Below, piece after piece: positions 5,740 to 21,683 of a stretch of DNA of 41,145 nucleotides. The stretch lies in the IMG/VR virus record IMGVR_UViG_3300046001_004308, positions 1 through 41,145 of that record, one strand, 5' to 3'. Both the position numbers and the translations under genes were made by a program. The stretch's first letter is position 1; each line of letters starts with the position of its first letter. This DNA comes from a virus. Under the pieces are notes generated by a model. That model saw nothing but the letters and a program-made list of their open reading frames with translations, was not told the DNA's origin and made no database searches.

Positions 5740-7436
5740 GCAAAAGGCTCGACCTGACAAAGGTTTCAGAAAACTATTCTGAAAGCGACACTGGATGGCG
5801 AACATACAATCCAGCCATGGGCTTTGGAATCAAGCTTGACTCGAGCAGAAAATATACTCCAGAAAAGAAAACGATAAAAATACTTGGCGCAAACGACGTT
5901 GTTTTCCATGAGGTGACATACAATGCAGGCGACGGATCATCCAAGGCAATAGACGGACTGACAGAGACAATCGACAAGACGACCTACCCTGACCGCGCGA
6001 TACTGAAGCTTTACAACGGTCGCGGTTTCAACGTTTACCTACGATCAGCGACGCTTGACGGAAAACTAATCTATCAATACTCAGGCGAGGCGGGCGAGCT
6101 GATCCACGATTCCCTCAAGCGAGACGACGACATCCGGCGCAACGGCGAGACCGTCTTTGAAATAGGAAACGAGTACATCGTGGACGGGACCCAGTGCGCG
6201 AAGATCGCTGACTACTGGTACAAGGCCCTGGGAAAGAAAAAGCACATGTACGCCCTGTCAATACCCGGATCATGCCCGTGGTATTCCGTGGGCGACTGGT
6301 ATAATCTACAGGTTGGGGAGGCTGACACAAATGAATACATCGACGCGGCGGTTGAATGTTTCGCGGTTGACGTTGAGCGCAGTGCTGGCGGCATCGGCTC
6401 TACTAATCTTATCCTGCGAGACGTCGAGGATAATTGGGCAAAGACCACACTCTACGAAACCAGGCTCGCCACAGGAGGAAGCCCCAAGCGGAGAGTCAAC
6501 CGATCCAATATAGTGACCGTTGCAAGCTCAGAGTATGACGGGACATACGACTACAAGTGCGACGGGACAGATGATGACGTGCAGATCCAGGCGGCGATTG
6601 ACTATGTGAGCAACACGTGGGGCGGTGGGACGATACAGCTGACGAATGGCGCGTATATTCTAGGTTCAAGCGTATATCTAAAAACAAACATGCGGCTTAT
6701 TGGAGAAGGAGCGAACAGCATAATAGAACTATCTTCAAACAGTTATCAAATAGTTGTGGGAACATTATCAAATGTCTGCGAGAATGCAACTCTATCAAAC
6801 TTCAAGGTTCTATCGTCAACCCCAGCCATCCCGGGATTCTCAGGAACAGACATGATTACCGGGTCATACTTTAACAAGATATATGTTATGAATATAATGA
6901 TTGACGGCAATGACACTCGATCAGGAATTAATTTACAGTCAGCGTTAGGGTATGGTTTTGATTCTATAGTGTCAGAATGTATTTTTACAAAATGTTACAG
7001 TTCATCGATTGCTTTGGGTGGGCAAAGATTAAGAGTCTCAGACTGTGTGATAAGCAACAATAAGGATGGATCGGCTTTTTACATCTCAGGCGGAGATAAT
7101 ATTGTATCAGGCTGTAATTTTGTGAACATAAACGTAAATAGTGATGATGGATCTATAAGAAGTGGCATTGAACTACTTGGCAACAGAAATTCTATTAATG
7201 GTTGCCGCATTCAGACAGTGAATGTATCTGCGTCTTACTCATCTCGCGGTATATATGTTGTAGGTGATAATTGCACTGTCTCCAATAATATCGTTACAAC
7301 ATGTGGAACCGGCATTGTGATTGCGGCTAATGCTGACCGAACGGTATTGACCAATAACCGATCCACAAACAACACAACTGCAAATTTCTCAGATTCCGGC
7401 ACAAACACAACTGATGCTGGAAATGACTGGAATTAA
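5736..7436 (+). CDS. Tail spike: hub-like N-terminus plus right-handed beta-helix
   Basis: The 566-residue protein starts in an ATGA overlap with the tail-hub gene. Residues 1-250 look like a structural adaptor that complements the hub of the previous protein (AKIADYWYKALGKK, WYSVGDWYNLQVG). From residue about 258 the motif DGTDDDVQIQAAIDYV opens a pectate-lyase-like beta-helix with many regularly spaced short strands (RVSDCVISNN, IVSGCNFVN, NSINGCRI, CTVSNNIV). Such proteins bind or degrade capsular or O-antigen polysaccharide. The beta-helix part (about 6660-7436) is clearly more AT-rich than its surroundings, which suggests exchange of the receptor-binding part. Confidence 0.78.
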   Translation: MSKRLDLTKVSENYSESDTGWRTYNPAMGFGIKLDSSRKYTPEKKTIKILGANDVVFHEVTYNAGDGSSKAIDGLTETIDKTTYPDRAILKLYNGRGFNVYLRSATLDGKLIYQYSGEAGELIHDSLKRDDDIRRNGETVFEIGNEYIVDGTQCAKIADYWYKALGKKKHMYALSIPGSCPWYSVGDWYNLQVGEADTNEYIDAAVECFAVDVERSAGGIGSTNLILRDVEDNWAKTTLYETRLATGGSPKRRVNRSNIVTVASSEYDGTYDYKCDGTDDDVQIQAAIDYVSNTWGGGTIQLTNGAYILGSSVYLKTNMRLIGEGANSIIELSSNSYQIVVGTLSNVCENATLSNFKVLSSTPAIPGFSGTDMITGSYFNKIYVMNIMIDGNDTRSGINLQSALGYGFDSIVSECIFTKCYSSSIALGGQRLRVSDCVISNNKDGSAFYISGGDNIVSGCNFVNINVNSDDGSIRSGIELLGNRNSINGCRIQTVNVSASYSSRGIYVVGDNCTVSNNIVTTCGTGIVIAANADRTVLTNNRSTNNTTANFSDSGTNTTDAGNDWN

Positions 7437-7451
7437 CGGAGGTTTCAACTC

Positions 7452-7991
7452 ATGACGCGACTACAGATTTTCGACCGATGCACCAAAGGCCCGTGGACAA
7501 CTTCCGGGCTGGGCGTCCAATGGCGCTGGAAGGACGGCGTGCTTGCCTTCCAATGCACGCGCGACCGTCAGGACTGGCTTTTCAACCTGTTTGCCGGCCG
7601 GGCTGAAATCGACGGGGACCTTGCCCATGCCGGGTTCGCCTCATTGTGGGCGTCGGTTCTTCATGAGGTTGCGGAGGCCGTGGGAACGACGTCCGGCTTC
7701 CAGATCGAGGGCTACTCGCAGGGGGCGGCGCTGGCCACCCTTGCGTACCGTTATTTCGACAAGCGGGGACAGAGACCGCATGGTAACGTGTTCGGAAGCC
7801 CAAAGGTATTCGCGCAGAAAGTGACCTGCGAGGATCTTGAAAACATCCAGACCCACGGGGACCTCGTTTCCGCCCTTCCATTCTTCCCGTGGTTCAGGCA
7901 CACCGGGACCGTGATAAGATTTGGCAAGCAGCAGATGATACCGACGCCCATGAAACACACGCCGGAAGAATACCGAAAAGCATTATCATAA
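7452..7991 (+). CDS. Class 3 lipase-like alpha/beta hydrolase
   Basis: This is a 179-residue protein with the nucleophile elbow GYSQG (residues 87-91, Ser89) inside FQIEGYSQGAALATLA, the following VFGSPKV strand, and THGDLVSALP with a plausible catalytic Asp137. His150 (FRHTG) is the likely third member; His169 is an alternative. This order, including GFASLW before the elbow, matches class 3 (fungal-type) lipases. It has no signal peptide. It sits between the tail spike and the lysis genes, so it could be an esterase of the tail machinery that trims acyl groups from the receptor, or an aid to envelope disruption. A good ribosome binding site (GGAGG) precedes ATG 7452. Confidence 0.75.
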   Translation: MTRLQIFDRCTKGPWTTSGLGVQWRWKDGVLAFQCTRDRQDWLFNLFAGRAEIDGDLAHAGFASLWASVLHEVAEAVGTTSGFQIEGYSQGAALATLAYRYFDKRGQRPHGNVFGSPKVFAQKVTCEDLENIQTHGDLVSALPFFPWFRHTGTVIRFGKQQMIPTPMKHTPEEYRKALS

Positions 7992-8001
7992 AGGAGCCGG
8001 C

Positions 8002-8409
8002 ATGACCGAAGCGGAGCAGGGACGGATAAGCGAGAAAGTGGACACCGTGGCGAGGGACGTAAGCAAGCTCTGGACGGAGCACCGGGTTCTTTCGTCGGTT
8101 GTGCAGGGGCCGGACGGCTCGAACGGGCTGAAAAGCCGCGTTGTCACCCTGGAGGAATGGAAGGAGAAGCACATGGAGGCTTCAGGGGAACTCAGGAAAG
8201 AGCTTGCCCACTATTTCGACGTCAAGCGGGAAAGCACCTGCCACGGGATCAAGGCGCTTGACGAACATATAGCCCAGCACATCAAGCTTTCCGAGGCGTC
8301 GGCCATGAGCAAGGAAAGCAAGGTGAAAGCCTTCCTCCAGGGATGGGGGCAGGTGCTTCAATTTATCGGAATCATCATTGTCGCCCTCATTGCGGCGGCG
8401 AAGGTATGA
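8002..8409 (+). CDS. Coiled-coil protein with C-terminal membrane anchor, lysis cassette
   Basis: This protein has 135 residues. About 110 residues of charged helix (KVDTVARDVSKLWTEH, VVTLEEWKEKHMEA) are followed by one C-terminal transmembrane segment, VLQFIGIIIVALIAAAKV. The layout resembles XhlA-type haemolysin/holin accessory proteins, and it opens the lysis block. A GGAG site lies upstream of ATG 8002. It could be a holin, a holin partner or a membrane tether; the sequence alone does not decide. Confidence 0.6.
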   Translation: MTEAEQGRISEKVDTVARDVSKLWTEHRVLSSVVQGPDGSNGLKSRVVTLEEWKEKHMEASGELRKELAHYFDVKRESTCHGIKALDEHIAQHIKLSEASAMSKESKVKAFLQGWGQVLQFIGIIIVALIAAAKV

Positions 8410-8885
8410 CGGTCCCCTGGGTATGGCAGCGGGACGCCGGAATCCTGAAGGTTGACGGGACCGATTACGAGTGCCTGTCAAACGTCCGGAACGAATTGAA
8501 CGGGAAGCGCCGCCTTCACGACTCGAAAGAGGTTGTTCGCATGATCCCGACATCCCACCCATACATGCCGCGACCGTTCCCCCTGGGTAGATGGTCCATC
8601 CTGGGGGTGATACGCAGGCACCCCGGAGATCCACGGTACAACGTGCTTGGGCCGGTTTTCATCCGCACCGACGCAAGCCAGGTCCTGCCCGTCTGGGCGC
8701 TTGACAGCCTGGGAGGTTACGACCACGAGACAGACGAGCTGGTTATGGATACGGCATACGGCTTGCACGCTTCCCCTGACTCGCTGACAACTTGGGGGTG
8801 CGGGCGGCTTTCATCGGCGACCGTCGCCCGCGAGCTGGGGCGGCTGGTGGACATAAACGACAGGATAATTCTGGAGGTGGTTTAA
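8406..8885 (+). CDS. Putative cell-wall enzyme, L,D-transpeptidase (YkuD)-like
   Basis: ATG 8406 overlaps the previous stop (ATGA), which gives 159 residues. The C-terminal part reads YGLHASPDSLTTWGCGRLSS and then ends in NDRIILEVV. A His followed by a (S/T)xGCxRL-type motif near residues 120-135, then a short helix and a final strand, is the signature seen in YkuD-fold enzymes, where the Cys is catalytic. DUF5675-like phage lysis proteins have a related His...GC pattern and are the main alternative. Position between two membrane proteins of the lysis block supports a peptidoglycan role. Confidence 0.5.
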   Translation: MTVPWVWQRDAGILKVDGTDYECLSNVRNELNGKRRLHDSKEVVRMIPTSHPYMPRPFPLGRWSILGVIRRHPGDPRYNVLGPVFIRTDASQVLPVWALDSLGGYDHETDELVMDTAYGLHASPDSLTTWGCGRLSSATVARELGRLVDINDRIILEVV

Positions 8886-15769: not shown

Positions 15770-16046
15770 GCTGGACGCCCGGATATGCGAGACCCGCGCC
15801 CGCCTGGGCAAACCCATCCAGAACCTTGACGCCCTTTCCTGCCTTCAGAGCACCGACACCGACGGCACCCGCATACGCTCATGGCTGGGGGATGACGGTA
15901 TGCAGGTCGAGATAGCCCGTGGCGAGGAAACAACGCTCATGTTCGCCCTGTCCTACCGGGCTTTGGCCCACCTGAACGGGCATATCGACCAGCGGCTTGA
16001 CGGCATACGGGAAAAGCAGAAGGCCGCCGGTAAGCCTTTGGATTGA
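15744..16046 (+). CDS. Hypothetical protein (about 100 aa)
   Basis: Two in-frame starts are possible, ATG 15744 and ATG 15756; neither has a strong Shine-Dalgarno site. The protein overlaps the end of the HExxH gene. It has short helical ends and a beta-prone middle (GMQVEIARGEETTLMFALSY). Its stop codon (16044-16046) is part of the -35 box of the promoter that starts the RNA control element. Function is unknown. Confidence 0.5.
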   Translation: MDSTMTEAELDARICETRARLGKPIQNLDALSCLQSTDTDGTRIRSWLGDDGMQVEIARGEETTLMFALSYRALAHLNGHIDQRLDGIREKQKAAGKPLD

Positions 16047-16126
16047 CTGCATCCCGATTGCGTGATAGGATTGAAGCGTCAACCGAACGGCAGACGGTTG
16101 ACCATGCGCCATGACAGGGGCATAAT
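16043..16126 (+). promoter_or_regulatory. Tandem promoters of RNA control element A
   Basis: Promoter 1 is TTGACT (16043-16048), 17 bases, TAGGAT (16066-16071), with start predicted at about 16078. Promoter 2 is TTGACC (16098-16103), 17 bases, CATAAT (16121-16126), with start predicted at about 16133. The -35 box of promoter 2 forms the 3' arm of an 8-bp perfect inverted repeat, GTCAACCG (16078-16085) and CGGTTGAC (16095-16102), which could be an operator, an RNA hairpin or both. The same arrangement recurs at 19923-20004. Confidence 0.72.
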
Positions 16127-16203
16127 CTGAGAGCCGTTTATGAGTAGAGCGGGGCTGTCACCCTGCTAGCCCCTGCCGGGGATACTCATAAACGGCTTTT
16201 TGT
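16078..16203 (+). ncRNA. RNA control element A: leader hairpin plus C4-like three-way-junction terminator RNA
   Basis: The promoter 2 RNA (about 16132-16203) begins at the base of a perfect 15-bp stem, AGCCGTTTATGAGTA (16132) with its complement at 16183-16197, and ends in TTTTTG. Inside are hairpin 1 (AGCGGG/CCCTGCT, loop GCTGTCA 16154-16160) and hairpin 2 (CCCC/GGGG, loop TGCC 16174-16177). Loop 1 can pair with TGACAG (16112-16117), and loop 2 with GGCA (16089-16092) in the loop of the leader hairpin. It precedes a small gene and the replication initiator. Sequence and structure are seen directly; antisense control is inferred. Confidence 0.72.
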
Positions 16204-16215
16204 TTGGAGTTAAAT

Positions 16216-16392
16216 ATGGACGTAGCTACCTATCCACCAGAGCTTGCCATTCGATTCGCATACCTTGCCGTGGCAATGAACAAGGCCGGAACCAAGATTT
16301 ATCAGAGTGACAAGAATTTCCTGTTTCAGGCACTCCCTGCAAACGACTTTCCAGGAAAAACCGAGCTTGTCATAGCAATGAGGGAAATATAA
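16216..16392 (+). CDS. Small hypothetical protein (58 aa)
   Basis: It starts at ATG 16216, 13 bases after the terminator of RNA element A, with TGGAG as a modest ribosome binding site. The product (begins MDVATYPPELAIRFAY) is helical and AT-rich in its coding. It is the first gene after the RNA element and is coupled to the replication initiator two bases downstream. It could be a regulator of replication or simply a leader gene; nothing in its sequence decides. Confidence 0.55.
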   Translation: MDVATYPPELAIRFAYLAVAMNKAGTKIYQSDKNFLFQALPANDFPGKTELVIAMREI

Positions 16393-16394
16393 AC

Positions 16395-17198
16395 ATGCCT
16401 TCAACACCATACATGAAACTTTATATAGGCGATTATCTGGGCGATACGTCCCATTTAACGACTCTTCAACATGGTGCCTACCTGCTTTTAATCATGGCAT
16501 ATTGGCAAAAAGGTGGATGCATCCGCAATGCGGACGCAATGCTTCGGCAATGCACACGCACTACAGAGTTAGAATGGCAAGAATGCAGGGAAACAATATT
16601 GGAGTTTTTTGAAGATCGCGAAGGATTCCTATATCACCACAGGATTGACAAGGAACTACATAAAAGAGCGGACATTTCAAGCAAAAGTAAATTTGCTGCC
16701 GATGCAAGATGGTGCGGACGTAATGCGGACGCAATGCCGACGCATAGCGGACGCAATGCCACTCCCATAGTCCATATTCCAGATAATAATATTATTAATA
16801 ATCAAGAAAATGCGGACGCAATGCCGACGCATAAGCACAAATACGGGAAAGAAAAAAACGTAATTCTTACTGACGAACAATACAAAGGACTTGTTGACGA
16901 TCTTGGTGAATCAATGGCTATTGATTGCATTGAGGAACTGTCATCGGCAAAGGCAATGAAAGGGTACAAATACAAGCGAGACGATCTCGCAATCAGAAAA
17001 TGGGTGATTGACGCTGTAGCACGCAAACCCATCCATTCACCAACTCCCGTTATTCCAGTCAAGCCAAAGATCATACCGACCTGCAAAGCCTGCGGATCAA
17101 CAGACCTTGCGCCGTCATGGTGCCGGACATGCCACTGGGACTTCATCCAGGACCCGGAGCAATGGCTTATCGAAAATCCAATTGAGGCCAGGCCGTGA
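16395..17198 (+). CDS. Replication initiator, DUF1376 family, lambda O analogue
   Basis: This protein has 267 residues. The N-terminus (YMKLYIGDYLGDTSHLTTLQ, HGAYLLLIMAYWQ) is the DUF1376 winged-helix domain found in phage replication initiators. A low-complexity linker (residues about 107-150) carries repeated DNA motifs and an AT-rich tract, marked separately as the origin. The C-terminal part ends with a possible zinc ribbon, CKACGST...CRTC. The DnaB-type helicase gene follows with a GTGA overlap. By analogy with lambda O, it would bind iterons in its own gene and load the helicase. The gene is more AT-rich than most of the genome. Confidence 0.75.
   Translation: MPSTPYMKLYIGDYLGDTSHLTTLQHGAYLLLIMAYWQKGGCIRNADAMLRQCTRTTELEWQECRETILEFFEDREGFLYHHRIDKELHKRADISSKSKFAADARWCGRNADAMPTHSGRNATPIVHIPDNNIINNQENADAMPTHKHKYGKEKNVILTDEQYKGLVDDLGESMAIDCIEELSSAKAMKGYKYKRDDLAIRKWVIDAVARKPIHSPTPVIPVKPKIIPTCKACGSTDLAPSWCRTCHWDFIQDPEQWLIENPIEARP
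16713..16824 (+). other. Probable replication origin: iterons and AT-rich unwinding element
   Basis: Four copies of (T/A)GCGGACG(C/T)AATGC start at 16713, 16724, 16746 and 16811; a fifth lies at 16529. The spacings of 11 and 22 bases place sites on one helix face. Between the third and fourth copies is an AT-only-like tract (about 16780-16806, with ATAATAATATTATTAATAAT). The same DNA repeat is read in two different frames (CGRNA and NADAM), so it is conserved as DNA and not as protein. This matches the lambda ori inside O. Confidence 0.75.
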
Positions 17199-18517
17199 AC
17201 CACTACAACGAAGAGGCTGAGCGGATTCTGTGTTGCATGGTTATGATCGACCCTGCGTTGATCGAGCGTATCGCAACCGTGATCCAGGATGATGATTTGT
17301 ATTTCACTTTCCACCGCTCGATATTGCACACCGTCAAGGAGCTTCACCGCAAGGGGACTGAGGTTGACCTTCTTTCAGTTTGTGCCGCGTTCAAGGCGAA
17401 AGGTGAAACGGATATTATCCCGAAGGTTGCGGAAATAAACGGCGTTGTCTCTTCATCCGCGAACGCAGACTTCTACGTCAAGGCCATTAAGGATTCATCC
17501 TTGAAGCGAAAGACGGCAAGGGTAATCGAGAACGCCCGTATCCGGCTTGAGTCAATTAGCGAGGAGGCGGCGTCAATATCCGGCGACCTTGAACGCGATA
17601 TTTCAGCGGCGAACCTTGGAATGTGCGGGACCGACTACAAGCGGGCAGGGGAATACATGCTTGATACCGTCTCGGACATCGAACGCTTCATAAGGACGCA
17701 GGGCAAGGTGAAGGGGATTGAGGCACCTTTTGCCGGCTTGTCCGACATAACGGATTTCAGGGACGGGGAGTACATAATCATCGCCGCCCGTGCATCGATG
17801 GGTAAAACGGCGCTTGCCTTGAGTATGGTTGAGGAAATAGCCATCAGCCGCAAGATTCCAACCGGGATATTCTCAATAGAAATGACGGCGAAACAGCTCA
17901 ACCTGCGGATGGTTTCATCGGTAAGCGGACTGTCCGCGTGGATGATCTCGAAGGGGATGTACAAAGGCGAAGCGCAGATGCACCGGCTCATGTACGCCGC
18001 ACAGACCATAGCCGACAGCCCGATATTCGTTGACGAATCAAGCTCGATCAAGCTTTCCGAGCTGAAAACTAAACTGCGCCGGATGGTCAAGGTTGACGGA
18101 TGCCGGATCATTTTCATCGACTACATCGGACTGATTAACGCCGAGCTTCCGAAACTTCCGAGGCATGAACAGATTGCCGAGATTTCGCGCACGATCAAGG
18201 CCATGGCGAAAGAGCTTGACATCCCGATAGTCGTAATGTCCCAGCTTACCCGTGACTTCGAGGGGAAACGGCCGACGCTAAACAGCCTGGCAGAGACGCG
18301 GAGCCTAGAACAGGATTCGGACGTGGTGATATTTATCCACCGCCAACGGGTCGAGGATATGAGCGATGATGAGAAAACCAAGTATTCAGCACGCATCCCA
18401 AGTGAATTGATCGTGGCGAAGAACCGGAACGGACCCACGGGGGTAGCAAACATGCTCTACTTGCCAAACATCACGAAATTCGTTGATCAGGTGAACACAG
18501 GGGGAAACAATGACTAA
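17195..18517 (+). CDS. dnaB: Replicative DNA helicase, DnaB type
   Basis: GTG 17195 overlaps the initiator stop, giving 440 residues. The N-terminal domain begins EEAERILCCMVMIDPALIERI and the linker helix follows. The RecA-like domain has Walker A AARASMGKTALALS (residues about 197-210), IFSIEMTAKQL, Walker B IIFIDYIGLI, then VVMSQLTRDFEGKRPTLNSL and ETRSLEQDSDVVIFIHRQ, all DnaB signatures. It unwinds the fork as a hexamer. It is the partner of the adjacent initiator, and with it forms the minimal replication module; no polymerase or primase was seen, so the host supplies these. Confidence 0.93.
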   Translation: MNHYNEEAERILCCMVMIDPALIERIATVIQDDDLYFTFHRSILHTVKELHRKGTEVDLLSVCAAFKAKGETDIIPKVAEINGVVSSSANADFYVKAIKDSSLKRKTARVIENARIRLESISEEAASISGDLERDISAANLGMCGTDYKRAGEYMLDTVSDIERFIRTQGKVKGIEAPFAGLSDITDFRDGEYIIIAARASMGKTALALSMVEEIAISRKIPTGIFSIEMTAKQLNLRMVSSVSGLSAWMISKGMYKGEAQMHRLMYAAQTIADSPIFVDESSSIKLSELKTKLRRMVKVDGCRIIFIDYIGLINAELPKLPRHEQIAEISRTIKAMAKELDIPIVVMSQLTRDFEGKRPTLNSLAETRSLEQDSDVVIFIHRQRVEDMSDDEKTKYSARIPSELIVAKNRNGPTGVANMLYLPNITKFVDQVNTGGNND

Positions 18518-19709
18518 ACGCCTGTTGCTTCTGAAACTGCCCGAACCCGCCAGGCCCACCCAGAAGCCCACCTACATGCCGCCCTTCGGCCTATGGTCCA
18601 TCGAGCACAACGTCCGGACCAGGGGATGGGACGTGCAGACGCTTGACCTCCACCTTCACGGGATGGAAGCCCTTGACCAGGCCATGGGGATGGGATGGGA
18701 CACCGTGGGGATCTCGGCGCAGTTTTCCATCCAGCACGACCTATACGTCGAAGTGGCCAGGAAAGCCGCCGCGTCCGGGGCGCGTGTTATCGCCGGGGGC
18801 TTCCATGCCGCCGCTGTCCCGATGCCGGCCGGGGTTGACCAGGTATTCGGGGGTTGCGGGGAACAGGCGCTTGTCCCGGACCTTGGCTTCAGTGACATCG
18901 AGTACCCGCCGGTATCGGTCGAGCGGATGGAACCATACTGGGCCATGGGTGCACCGCATGACCTGCAATCACTGACCGGCAAGTGGATGCCCGTCGAGTT
19001 CTCGCGGGGGTGCAACCGGCACTGCGGATTCTGCGGGGTCAACGGCTACTGGGGCGGGGTCCGGTATTTCGATGTGGTGAGCAATCTCACCTACCTGAAC
19101 GACCTTGCGGACAACGGGATCAAGGAAATCTTTATCGAGGATGACAACGTAATCAGCAATCCGGGGTTGTTTTCGTGGATTCTTGACCGGCTGAGGGACA
19201 ACGGGATCTCATGGTCCACGCCCAACGGTATAAGCGCCCGTGATCTTGTCAAATTCGTGCCAAGGTTGCGTCAATCGGGGTGCTGGCGTGTTTCGCTACC
19301 TTTCGAGACGGGAAACGCGTCCACGGCACGCCTGATGCGTCTGGGGGCCAAATGGATGCCGTTCGACGGAGCCCTTTCACTTGTGGACGCCCTGAAAGCC
19401 GAAGGAATCAAGACCTGCGGTTTTTTTATCATCGGCTATCCGGGGGAAACCCTGGACGACATGAGGAAAACCCTTGACTATGCGAATACGCTTCCCCTGG
19501 ACCAAAGGAACATCTACATCGCCACGCCCTACCCTGGAACGCCGCTCTACGAGGACTGCAAGCGGGAAGGCTGGCTGGTGTCGGATGACTACAAAGACCT
19601 GCTCTACACCAAGGGGTTGATCCAGACGCCGGAATTCACCCCAGGCCAGGTGGAAGCGCTGAAGGCGAGGGACCGGGAAGCGGCGATAGCGAGAAGGGGG
19701 AAGAAATGA
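18510..19709 (+). CDS. B12-binding-domain radical SAM protein
   Basis: This 399-residue protein overlaps the helicase by eight bases. Residues 1-145 form a cobalamin-type Rossmann domain (PPFGLWSIEHNVRTRGW, DTVGISAQFSIQHDL, ARVIAGGFHAA). The iron-sulfur motif is CNRHCGFC (Cys168, Cys172, Cys175). It is followed by EIFIEDDNVISNP, GFFIIGYPGET and a final basic helix. All match B12-binding radical SAM enzymes of the BchE/Elp3-like architecture, which methylate or rearrange unreactive carbons. The gene has the composition of its neighbours and sits in the replication operon. The substrate is unknown; modified nucleotides or DNA, an RNA or a host metabolite are all possible. Confidence 0.88.
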   Translation: MTKRLLLLKLPEPARPTQKPTYMPPFGLWSIEHNVRTRGWDVQTLDLHLHGMEALDQAMGMGWDTVGISAQFSIQHDLYVEVARKAAASGARVIAGGFHAAAVPMPAGVDQVFGGCGEQALVPDLGFSDIEYPPVSVERMEPYWAMGAPHDLQSLTGKWMPVEFSRGCNRHCGFCGVNGYWGGVRYFDVVSNLTYLNDLADNGIKEIFIEDDNVISNPGLFSWILDRLRDNGISWSTPNGISARDLVKFVPRLRQSGCWRVSLPFETGNASTARLMRLGAKWMPFDGALSLVDALKAEGIKTCGFFIIGYPGETLDDMRKTLDYANTLPLDQRNIYIATPYPGTPLYEDCKREGWLVSDDYKDLLYTKGLIQTPEFTPGQVEALKARDREAAIARRGKK

Positions 19710-19903
19710 AGATCAAGCGTGTCATGGGATATACAGGCGTAACGATTCTTTATTTTATGTTGTTTTGGGCGTTGCCCATATTATTTGAAGGAATCAAAAA
19801 GGGCCTTTTAATAGGGTTGTTAGTCAATGGCGTGTTCGCCGTATTTATATTACTAGCTTGCTTTTTTGTATGGGCTTTCGATATGACCGATTTTAGCAAA
19901 TAA
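19706..19903 (+). CDS. Small two-TM membrane protein
   Basis: ATG 19706 overlaps the radical SAM stop codon, giving 65 residues. Two membrane helices are clear: VTILYFMLFWALPILF and LIGLLVNGVFAVFILLACFF. The coding is much more AT-rich than in the neighbouring genes, which suggests recent acquisition. Proteins of this size at the end of early operons often act in superinfection exclusion; here that is only inferred. Confidence 0.6.
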   Translation: MKIKRVMGYTGVTILYFMLFWALPILFEGIKKGLLIGLLVNGVFAVFILLACFFVWAFDMTDFSK

Positions 19904-19922
19904 AAGAGTAAGTGGGGAAAGA

Positions 19923-20004
19923 TTGACACCGGGGCAATGCCGTGCTATGCTTCAGGGGTCGACGGCGGACATCCGTTGACAATGCGCCTGTAGGGTGGCA
20001 TGAT
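19923..20004 (+). promoter_or_regulatory. Tandem promoters of RNA control element B
   Basis: Promoter 1 is TTGACA (19923-19928), 17 bases, TATGCT (19946-19951), with start at about 19958. Promoter 2 is TTGACA (19976-19981), 17 bases, CATGAT (19999-20004), with start at about 20011. The inverted repeat GTCGACGG (19958-19965) and CCGTTGAC (19973-19980) covers the promoter 2 -35 box. Both predicted starts coincide with the first base of a stem, exactly as in element A. Confidence 0.75.
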
Positions 20005-20082
20005 TCAAGAGCCGTTTGTGAGTCCAGGGTAGCCCTACACTACCCTAACCCCTGTCCGGGGGACTCACCGACGGCTTTTTTT
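19958..20082 (+). ncRNA. RNA control element B: leader hairpin plus C4-like three-way-junction terminator RNA, upstream of antirepressor
   Basis: The promoter 2 RNA (about 20010-20082) has an outer stem AGCCGTTTGTGAGTCC (20010) with 20061-20076, ending in seven T. Hairpin 1 is AGGGTAG/CTACCCT (20026-20046) with loop CCCTACA, and hairpin 2 has loop TGTCC (20053-20057). Loop 1 is fully complementary to TGTAGGG (19989-19995), and loop 2 to GGACA (19967-19971) in the loop of the leader hairpin. Element A has the same two pairings with different bases. Position just before an antirepressor gene and a length near 72 nt recall the C4 antisense RNA of P1/P7. Control of the antirepressor is inferred. 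Confidence 0.75.
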
Positions 20083-20094
20083 ATGGAGCGGGAC

Positions 20095-20817
20095 ATGAGC
20101 GACTTCCTGCCATTCGATGATCAGATCGAGAAAGTGTCGGTTCCAGGGGTCAAGACCATGGACAGCCGGGACATTGCGGAATTAACCGGAAAACAACACG
20201 CGCATGTATGCCGGGACATCCAGGATATGTTTGAAAGGCTTGGAATCAACCAATCCATATTTGGATCGGTCTATCTTGCCGGGAACGGGGAAAATCGCCG
20301 TTGTTTCAAGCTCCCTTACCGCGAGACCATGATACTTGTGTCCGGTTATTCCGTCGAGCTTAGGGCAAAAGTAATAGACCGCTGGATGGAGCTTGAACGC
20401 AAGGAATCAGCCCTGCCCGACTTCACCAACCCGGTAGCCGCCGCCCGTGCATGGGCAGACCAGACAGAGGCGAAGATCAAGGCCGAGACCGCCCTTGCCC
20501 TCGCCGCTCCCAAAGTGGAAATGGCCGAAGCGCTCATGCGGTGCGACCGCAACGTGTGCATAACCGAAGCCTGCAAGCACTTTGGCCTGCATCCCAAGAC
20601 GGAAGTTTTCCCGTACCTTCGGCATCATGGATACCTTACAACGCGGGACCTGCCCACGCAGGCCGCCATAGACGCCGGATACCTTGAGCTGAAGGAAACC
20701 GTATTGAGGGACGGAAGCACCATAGCGCAGGCCGTGGTTGCGGTCTGGCAACTTGAAAACTGGAGATCCCACGTCGTCCACCAGGTAAAACGATGGTGCG
20801 GGGAGATGGCCGTTTGA
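20095..20817 (+). CDS. Antirepressor: Rha-type N-terminus with KilAC C-terminus
   Basis: I chose ATG 20095 (GGAG seven bases before) over ATG 20083; this gives 240 residues. Residues about 20-105 (MDSRDIAELTGKQHAHVCRD, RCFKLPYRETMILVSGYS) form the Rha/phage regulatory domain. Residues about 140-235 (APKVEMAEALMRCDRNVCIT, EACKHFGL, YLRHHGYL) form the KilAC domain common to Ant-type antirepressors. Such proteins inactivate repressors and trigger lytic growth. The gene follows the terminator of RNA element B by 12 bases, so its expression should depend on read-through or on coupling from promoter 1. Confidence 0.85.
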   Translation: MSDFLPFDDQIEKVSVPGVKTMDSRDIAELTGKQHAHVCRDIQDMFERLGINQSIFGSVYLAGNGENRRCFKLPYRETMILVSGYSVELRAKVIDRWMELERKESALPDFTNPVAAARAWADQTEAKIKAETALALAAPKVEMAEALMRCDRNVCITEACKHFGLHPKTEVFPYLRHHGYLTTRDLPTQAAIDAGYLELKETVLRDGSTIAQAVVAVWQLENWRSHVVHQVKRWCGEMAV

Positions 20818-21105: not shown

Positions 21106-21134
21106 TTGACAGATTGCCAATTGTGGCCTATAAT
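21106..21134 (+). promoter_or_regulatory. Perfect-consensus sigma70 promoter, predicted leaderless transcript
   Basis: TTGACA (21106-21111), 17 bases, TATAAT (21129-21134) match the consensus at 12 of 12 positions. Six bases (TGACCC) separate the -10 box from ATG 21141, so RNA should begin at the start codon. The first 14 bases, TTGACAGATTGCCA, are identical to the promoter at 12569 and extend beyond the -35 box, which suggests a shared operator. Confidence 0.9.
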
Positions 21135-21140
21135 TGACCC

Positions 21141-21683
21141 ATGCGTGTACTGACAATCGCCCAAAGTTACGCCTACGCCATTGTTTACGGTCTAAAAGGC
21201 GTTGAAAACCGGGCATGGACGACCCCATACCGGGGGACCATCGCCATCCATACCGGCAAGACGGACGACGGCAAGGCGTACGATAAAATAGACATCTTCG
21301 AGGATTTCAAGAAAACGCGCCGCGAAGACGGGACGGGGTACCCCATAACCGACGCCTGCGCGCTCTTGTGCAACGACCCTGACGGGCATCTTGCCTTGCG
21401 TCCCGGATGCGCCGGAGACATTGACAAGGCCCGCGCCCTTGCAATGCTTAGGTGGATCATAAACGCGACTGATGATGAGATCCAGCCTGGGGCGATTATC
21501 GGGCTAGTCGATATCACCGGCATCGTCAAAGACAGTCCAAGCCGGTGGGCCGAGCTTGGTTTTAATCACTGGACGCTTGCCAACCCGCGCCGGTTCGCCA
21601 AGCCGATCATAGGCGTTCGAGGTATGCCGGGATTTTGGCAATACCCTGACGATAAACTCTTATCACGGGAGGTAGTACCATGA
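21141..21683 (+). CDS. ASCH-domain protein
   Basis: This 180-residue protein begins VLTIAQSYAYAIVYGLKGVENR, then TTPYRGTIAIHTGK, and later AIIGLVDITGIV. This is the PUA-like ASCH fold: the N-terminal L.I..P(S)YA..I..G.K.VE.R motif and the basic GxK strand bind nucleic acid or modified bases. Some ASCH proteins are RNases or amidohydrolases. It is the first gene after a perfect promoter and appears to be translated from a leaderless mRNA. The next genes encode a PAPS-reductase-like and a ParB-like protein, so a role in recognising modified nucleic acid is possible. Confidence 0.82.
   Translation: MRVLTIAQSYAYAIVYGLKGVENRAWTTPYRGTIAIHTGKTDDGKAYDKIDIFEDFKKTRREDGTGYPITDACALLCNDPDGHLALRPGCAGDIDKARALAMLRWIINATDDEIQPGAIIGLVDITGIVKDSPSRWAELGFNHWTLANPRRFAKPIIGVRGMPGFWQYPDDKLLSREVVP

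Follow-up and report, generated by a model that had tools for sequence, protein, structure and literature searches.

The uncultured phage genome IMGVR_UViG_3300046001_004308 (an IMG/VR virus record of 41,145 bases, here called the window; positions are window coordinates) carries two RNA elements, copy 1 at 16043-16203 and copy 2 at 19923-20082, about 70% identical to each other. Each of them is, on balance, probably an immunity switch that works by transcription attenuation and has an RNA key of its own, in which a small RNA made from an internal promoter (promoter 2) would act in trans and terminate transcripts that start at an upstream one (promoter 1). Both copies have the same order of parts: promoter 1, leader hairpin b, promoter 2, leader hairpin a and a three-way-junction terminator (Table 1). 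Hairpin b begins at the expected start of promoter 1 transcripts (16078 and 19958), its 3' arm is at the same time the -35 box of promoter 2, and the short hairpin a is located within the promoter 2 spacer. The junction hairpin ends in a T-run, with the Shine-Dalgarno sequence and start codon of the next gene directly behind; in copy 2 the Shine-Dalgarno of the antirepressor gene comes immediately after the T-run. The junction terminators are the unconstrained minimum-energy folds of their regions, with z of -6.2 (copy 1) and -6.3 (copy 2) against shuffled controls. This anatomy of two promoters, two leader hairpins and a terminator, as predicted from the letters, agrees with the first-pass annotation of this DNA, which had described two paralogous elements sharing one plan and placed them correctly within a few bases. 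The C-G to G-C compensatory change that it saw in the leader stem is real as well (alignment columns 42-56).

The most telling property of the elements is a double complementarity between the small RNA and its own leader. Loop 1 matches target a exactly (CTGTCA with TGACAG in copy 1, CCCTACA with TGTAGGG in copy 2), and loop 2 matches the loop of leader hairpin b (CTGCCG with CGGCAG, and TGTCCG with CGGACA), over 6 bp in each copy and not the 4-5 originally given. Target a is also displayed in the second leader hairpin, a point absent from the annotation, which makes two kissing-loop pairs in the nested order b-a-a'-b'. The two copies pair poorly with each other, as the annotation had claimed: for copies 1 and 2 the longest Watson-Crick runs of loop 1 are 6 and 7 with their own target versus 3 and 4 with the other copy's, and those of loop 2 are 6 and 6 versus 4 and 3.

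Coevolving loop pairs in 17 elements

The family was collected with a covariance model, R1, built from six seed elements: the window's two and those of L005, L008, L012 and L013, spotted by inspection in viral contigs encoding antirepressor relatives. A search with R1, which scores sequence and stems, gave ten further distinct elements (a second copy in L008, L011, L032, two in L037, L054, which is in the record of L007, two in L084, L081 and L086), and a promoter-pattern scan added L303 (85 bits with R1). In total there are 17 distinct elements, all in uncultured phages, plus near-duplicates (L002 and L016 of the window's, L087 of that in L086, L091 of L037b, L249 of that in L012). One search pattern contained TGCCGGG as a fixed string, which belongs to pair b on the side of the small RNA; in L081, L084x and L086 this side was thus pre-selected, and the leader side was not; R1 matches below 35 bits from loci picked by promoter pattern were not counted. 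All 17 have the complete plan of promoter 1, hairpins b and a, promoter 2, three-way-junction terminator and two self-complementary loop pairs.

The stems are well conserved as structures. In an alignment of 16 elements fitted to R1, 97.1% of stem cells hold standard pairs and 25 of the 31 stem pairs show double changes, including 13 of 15 in the outer stem of the small RNA; the covariation score is 0.70 versus 0.20 for shuffled alignments and about 0.1 for slid structures, and none of 500 shuffles scored as high. A six-element MAFFT alignment, not fitted to the model, has 95.1% of stem cells paired and 16 pairs with double changes. Unconstrained folding returned the same two-hairpin junction inside a long outer stem for the small-RNA regions of all 16 elements. 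Promoter 1 has a 17-nucleotide (nt) spacer and a -10 box ending 6 nt ahead of the hairpin in 12 of the 16, while promoter 2 keeps its -35 box in the hairpin 3' arm and its -10 box at 16-19 nt across the family. Target b is mostly unpaired in the predicted folds of all 16 elements, and target a has at least three unpaired bases in 14.

Since the covariance model is blind to loop-loop pairing, the loops provide an independent test. Loop 1 forms runs of 6, 7, 5, 6, 6, 6, 5, 6, 6, 6, 8, 6, 8, 6, 6 and 7 bp with the spacers of its own 16 elements and a mean of 3.34 bp with those of other elements, none of the 240 non-self combinations reaching 6; the summed self score of 100 compares with a maximum of 78 in 100,000 permutations. 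For loop 2 and its own leader loop the sum is 91 versus a permutation maximum of 83, and this pair is less variable than that of loop 1, CGGCA[TAG] being common. Control (wrong) loop-target combinations are at background, and a dinucleotide-shuffle test gives combined p of 4e-11 and 1e-13 for the two loop pairs. L303, found after the hypothesis had been fixed, has 6 bp in pair a (one of them G-U) and 8 bp in pair b. Both complementarities are kept in 17 of 17 distinct elements while the letters change, nearly all having different loop-1 targets. The annotation had said in advance that relatives with intact stems and lost complementarity would speak against it; among the 15 further elements none has lost it. 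At the level of sequence, both complementarities, their coevolution and the failure of paired copies to match crosswise are features of the family. It is hard to see the inverted repeats as DNA-level operators for a phage repressor, with the loop matches as side effects. In favour of operators, the repeats are palindromic and the promoter 2 -35 box shares bases with the leader hairpin. Against them, the complementarity joins separate hairpins by their loops and not by their arms, it coevolves in 17 elements with differing letters, and G-U pairs are present in the stems. We regard this explanation as very improbable.

Four records hold two copies each, namely the window, G004 (L008), G011 (L037) and G018 (L084), and in them pair a has 6-8 bp within a copy versus 3-4 bp across copies. 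G011 is a natural experiment on loop change under a shared operon, as it has the same genes between its copies as the window: a 58-amino-acid open reading frame (ORF), a replication protein (matching in its C-terminal domain), DnaB and a radical-SAM protein. Loop 1 reads CTGTCA in the window versus CGAACA in G011 for copy 1, and CCCTACA versus CCGTGAA for copy 2; all four loop pairs have changed between the two phages, with complementarity kept.

Predicted mode of action

Antirepressor and replication genes are ones that a lysogen must keep off. In the reading that we favour, promoter 2 would give a small RNA of about 70 nt that is itself the three-way-junction intrinsic terminator and exposes loops a' and b', while promoter 1 would give the mRNA of the downstream genes, whose leader hairpins show first loop b and then loop a, the complements of b' and a'. 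The small RNA would bind the nascent promoter 1 leader through the two kissing loops, in nested order, and this transcript would then terminate just ahead of the ribosome-binding site, the antirepressor (copy 2) or the replication operon (copy 1) staying off as long as the small RNA is present. The loop letters would set specificity, with the consequence that no cross-talk would be expected between copies in one phage or between phages. The activity of promoter 2, pairing in trans, the negative effect and termination as the regulated step are what we infer from this arrangement. The least secure part of the scheme is how the promoter 1 transcript reads through when the small RNA is missing; one way may be a kissing contact in cis between the leader and a terminator that is only half made.

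Other control points were looked for. No target overlaps the ribosome site of the downstream gene, which directly follows the T-run. Within 100 nt downstream, complementarity to a 3' target is the same for self and non-self (4.19 versus 4.12 and 4.00 versus 3.86), and no additional target was found upstream or downstream of the element. Control by a leader peptide was rejected, as the leaders have no conserved start codon with a Shine-Dalgarno, and so was a conventional attenuator with the leader pairing to the outer terminator arm, for which self is no better than non-self (4.44 versus 4.37 and 4.25 versus 4.50 bp). With the ribosome site free of pairing, and no leader ORF, 3' target or conventional antiterminator, termination is favoured, and the junction hairpin is naturally the only obvious place for it.

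Several observations weigh against this reading. Judged by consensus, L013, L081 and L084x have a weak promoter 2. Pair a of L012 has only 5 bp, with target a mostly inside a predicted stem, and pair b has only 4 bp in L008b and L037a. Pairing between leader and terminator arms, as in a conventional antiterminator, is no better than chance, which leaves the read-through structure hypothetical. Finally, pairing in cis inside the promoter 1 transcript could fit the same comparative data, as cis and trans are not separable by comparison. Taken alone, such pairing would make a pseudoknotted attenuator, in which the leader loops pair with their own terminator loops and sense a protein, a ligand or the folding rate, the promoter 2 RNA being incidental. 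All partners are indeed in one transcript and in nested order, and self-specificity is expected equally from it. Nevertheless, we consider a cis-only device unlikely: the -35 box, -10 box and spacing of promoter 2 are conserved though it would not need them, the loop letters vary between phages and between paralogues of the same phage, as expected for trans specificity and not for a shared sensor, and there is no evident conserved ligand-like core outside the stems.

A more novel scheme, which we mention as doubtful, would make these elements a new class of natural, loop-programmable attenuators. In it, the leader hairpins would form kissing contacts in cis with a terminator that is only half made and so keep it open, since threading of a closed loop is not possible as long as RNA polymerase still contains the 3' end. 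The small RNA from promoter 2 would be a decoy that draws the leader loops away and so restores termination, and the two orthogonal copies would control exit from lysogeny and replication separately.

Gene contexts and distribution

The first-pass annotation had put the two circuits before an antirepressor and a replication initiator. Both contexts are right, with the correction that copy 1 first meets the 58-amino-acid ORF, which has no Pfam match, and only then the DUF1376 gene and DnaB. Elsewhere in the family, ANT genes lie behind the elements of L005, L008a, L012, L013, L032, L086 and L303, a Bro-N gene behind that of L081, and DUF5131 followed by ANT behind L084x. Replication-type operons follow L008b (HTH_36 and Lin1244_N), L037a (DUF6291 and DnaB), L054 and L084y (Lin1244_N), and in L011 there are two ORFs and then DnaB. 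Of the remaining elements, L037b precedes a gene for a T5orf172 protein and L249 one for a nucleotidyltransferase-like protein. Over the whole family, the genes downstream are mostly antirepressors (ANT, Bro-N, AntA) or replication operons (DUF1376, DUF6291, Lin1244_N, DnaB). The element at L249:6917-7075 is nearly identical to that of L012, all loops included, and precedes the nucleotidyltransferase-like gene and not an antirepressor, which suggests that the element moves between gene contexts.

Table 1. Coordinates of the two elements and their neighbouring genes in the window
Feature	Position	Strand	Details and basis
Copy 1 promoter 1, TTGACT-17 nt-TAGGAT	16043..16071	+	sequence, conserved spacing
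Copy 1 leader hairpin b (GTCAACCG/CGGTTGAC)	16078..16102	+	fold, stem covariation, loop pairs with small-RNA loop 2
Copy 1 target b, CGGCAG	16088-16093	+	in loop of hairpin b
Copy 1 promoter 2, TTGACC-17 nt-CATAAT	16098..16126	+	predicted start of small RNA; family conservation
Copy 1 leader hairpin a	16104..16123	+	target a TGACAG 16112-16117 in loop; spacer fold, complementarity to CTGTCA
Copy 1 small RNA/three-way-junction intrinsic terminator (predicted)	16130..16203	+	fold z -6.2, R1 142 bits
Copy 1 loop 1, CTGTCA	16155-16160	+	
Copy 1 loop 2 segment, CTGCCG	16173-16178	+	
58-amino-acid ORF	16216..16392	+	first gene after copy 1; 47% identical to same-place ORF in G011
DUF1376 replication-type protein	16395..17198	+	Pfam PF07120, 1.3e-20
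DnaB-type replicative helicase	17195..18517	+	Pfam PF03796, 1.2e-70
Copy 2 promoter 1, TTGACA-17 nt-TATGCT	19923..19951	+	sequence, conservation
Copy 2 leader hairpin b	19958..19980	+	target b CGGACA 19966-19971 in loop; fold, complementarity
Copy 2 promoter 2, TTGACA-17 nt-CATGAT	19976..20004	+	family conservation
Copy 2 leader hairpin a	19982..20002	+	target a TGTAGGG 19989-19995; only 3/7 target bases unpaired in predicted fold
Copy 2 small RNA/three-way-junction terminator (predicted)	20008..20082	+	fold z -6.3, R1 138 bits
Copy 2 loop 1, CCCTACA	20033-20039	+	
Copy 2 loop 2 segment, TGTCCG	20053-20058	+	
Antirepressor gene	20095..20817	+	Rha N-terminal domain and ANT/KilAC domain; Pfam PF09669, PF03374

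Within the replication operon, between the DnaB gene and copy 2, positions 18510-19709 encode a radical-SAM protein with a B12-binding-like domain, 78% identical to its counterpart at the corresponding position of G011. Further downstream, at 21106-21142, a strong promoter-like TTGACA...TATAAT stands just before an ORF at 21141, with a weak R1 match and the rest of the element absent.

Outside the family the searches were negative. Cultured phages gave no matching element, a protein search with the Ant of L013 no match in phages or plasmids, a genome scan with the Ant alignment A2 no matches, and a pattern scan of bacterial contigs only matches that R1 shows to be chance. About 400 genomes were sampled from the phylum of each of Breznakiella, a Desulfobacteraceae metagenome-assembled genome (MAG) and a Clostridia MAG, and under strict filters these gave no match. 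L003/L020 and L023/L064 encode antirepressor relatives and have no element by R1. L015, with a three-way-junction terminator before an antirepressor, was left aside as a member because R1 gives it only 12.7 bits. Its structure (L015:803-989) is a different one, upstream of a Rha/ANT-type gene and behind a tRNA cluster; by eye its junction strand CCTGCAA is complementary to an upstream TTGCAGG, which resembles a C4-type layout, and there is no Rfam C4 match. On the minus strand of L303, positions 7949-8014 give a type II hammerhead ribozyme match near threshold (36.8 bits, cut-off 37).

Relation to known phage immunity RNAs

Two Rfam families, the c4 antisense RNA and c4-a1b1, both listed by Weinberg et al. 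2010 (PMC2864571), are the obvious points of comparison. The element works like a C4/CI immunity RNA yet lies outside Rfam C4 by test. Neither C4 (RF01695, threshold 45 bits) nor c4-a1b1 (RF03163) matches the window at gathering, or the region 15900-20300 at E <= 10, while as positive controls P1, P4 and N15 match C4 at 68.8, 74.9 and 78.8 bits and P1 matches c4-a1b1 at 51 bits. R1 in turn does not match P1, P4 or N15. The C4-like reading of the first-pass annotation is thus upheld for the way of working, close to P1 C4 and P4 CI, and not for membership in either Rfam family. An Rfam match to SSRC10 (E 0.045, below its cut-off) was taken as chance.

The element resembles C4 of P1/P7 in several ways. 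Both are three-way-junction RNAs of about 75 nt, encoded on the strand of their target mRNA, with two short antisense segments and a long outer stem around two hairpins. The targets lie on the 5' side, one of them in a leader hairpin loop. C4 controls an antirepressor and its loop letters define heteroimmunity, and both are predicted for the element too. The antisense segments of C4 are the hairpin 2 loop and the junction strand, with a tetraloop on hairpin 1, whereas here both are loops of hairpins. Processing of the ant transcript yields C4, whereas the small RNA here has its own promoter, as a predicted primary transcript, and doubles as the intrinsic terminator. A further pair of targets, a2 and b2, lies 3' of C4 at the ribosome site, and no such pair was found here. 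Targets a and b lie 5' of the RNA in all 17 elements, and the annotation had presented this as a contrast to P1/P7, with 3' targets there. This was mistaken: P1 is annotated with a1 and b1 5' of c4, which Rfam has as c4-a1b1, and with a2 and b2 3' of it, and P4 has seqA upstream (PMC4825925). The true contrast with C4 is the absence of 3' targets.

According to the IsrK paper PMC4825925, the CI RNA of P4 pairs with seqA upstream and seqC downstream, causes premature termination and controls replication genes. A leader-located antisense RNA, premature termination, control of replication genes and an upstream target would thus be common to both. CI is processed from the leader, and P4 matches C4 and isrK but not R1, and gave one C4 match, not two paralogues. 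Control of a replication gene, which the annotation had considered new, has its precedent in CI; given P1 a1/b1, P4 seqA and P4 CI, neither 5' targets nor replication control is new as such. In P4 (L224:8615-8692 and 8420-8507, minus) and N15 (L225:6415-6490 and 6302-6389, minus) isrK lies just upstream of C4, as if both belonged to a single leader system.

IsrK of Gifsy-1 is likewise a terminated phage small RNA that stands before an antirepressor gene. It acts in trans on the read-through transcript of its own locus, with an increase of about 8-fold in transcription and about 140-fold in translation (PMC4825925). By analogy, the promoter 2 RNA might be an activator that binds the promoter 1 leader and raises downstream expression, for example by aiding read-through. 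IsrK activates translation via a leader ORF (PMC4825925), which this effect needs and which is not conserved here. There is also no match to isrK (RF01394) in the window, whereas P4 and N15 do match, and we find an activating role improbable. In attenuators of the pT181 type, kissing loops between a small RNA and the leader decide termination. The antisense RNA there comes from the opposite strand and has long complementarity, unlike the same-strand, loop-only pairing seen here; such antisense transcription attenuators are the subject of PMC4878617.

What is new is the RNA family, its two-loop design, the dedicated small-RNA promoter, a terminator that is itself the small RNA, and the presence of two orthogonal copies per phage. 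We found no description of this element in the open-access literature, which is not proof of absence. Few phage immunity RNAs are on record, and the finding extends their number by a family that has no entry in the copy of Rfam 15 used for the searches. The two copies look like a pair of independent lock-and-key off-switches and, not matching each other, would join in one genome the antirepressor control of P1 and the replication control of P4. The matched loop pairs of 17 natural elements are a library for specificity tests in RNA-based superinfection immunity, and may also be used for orthogonal RNA regulators.

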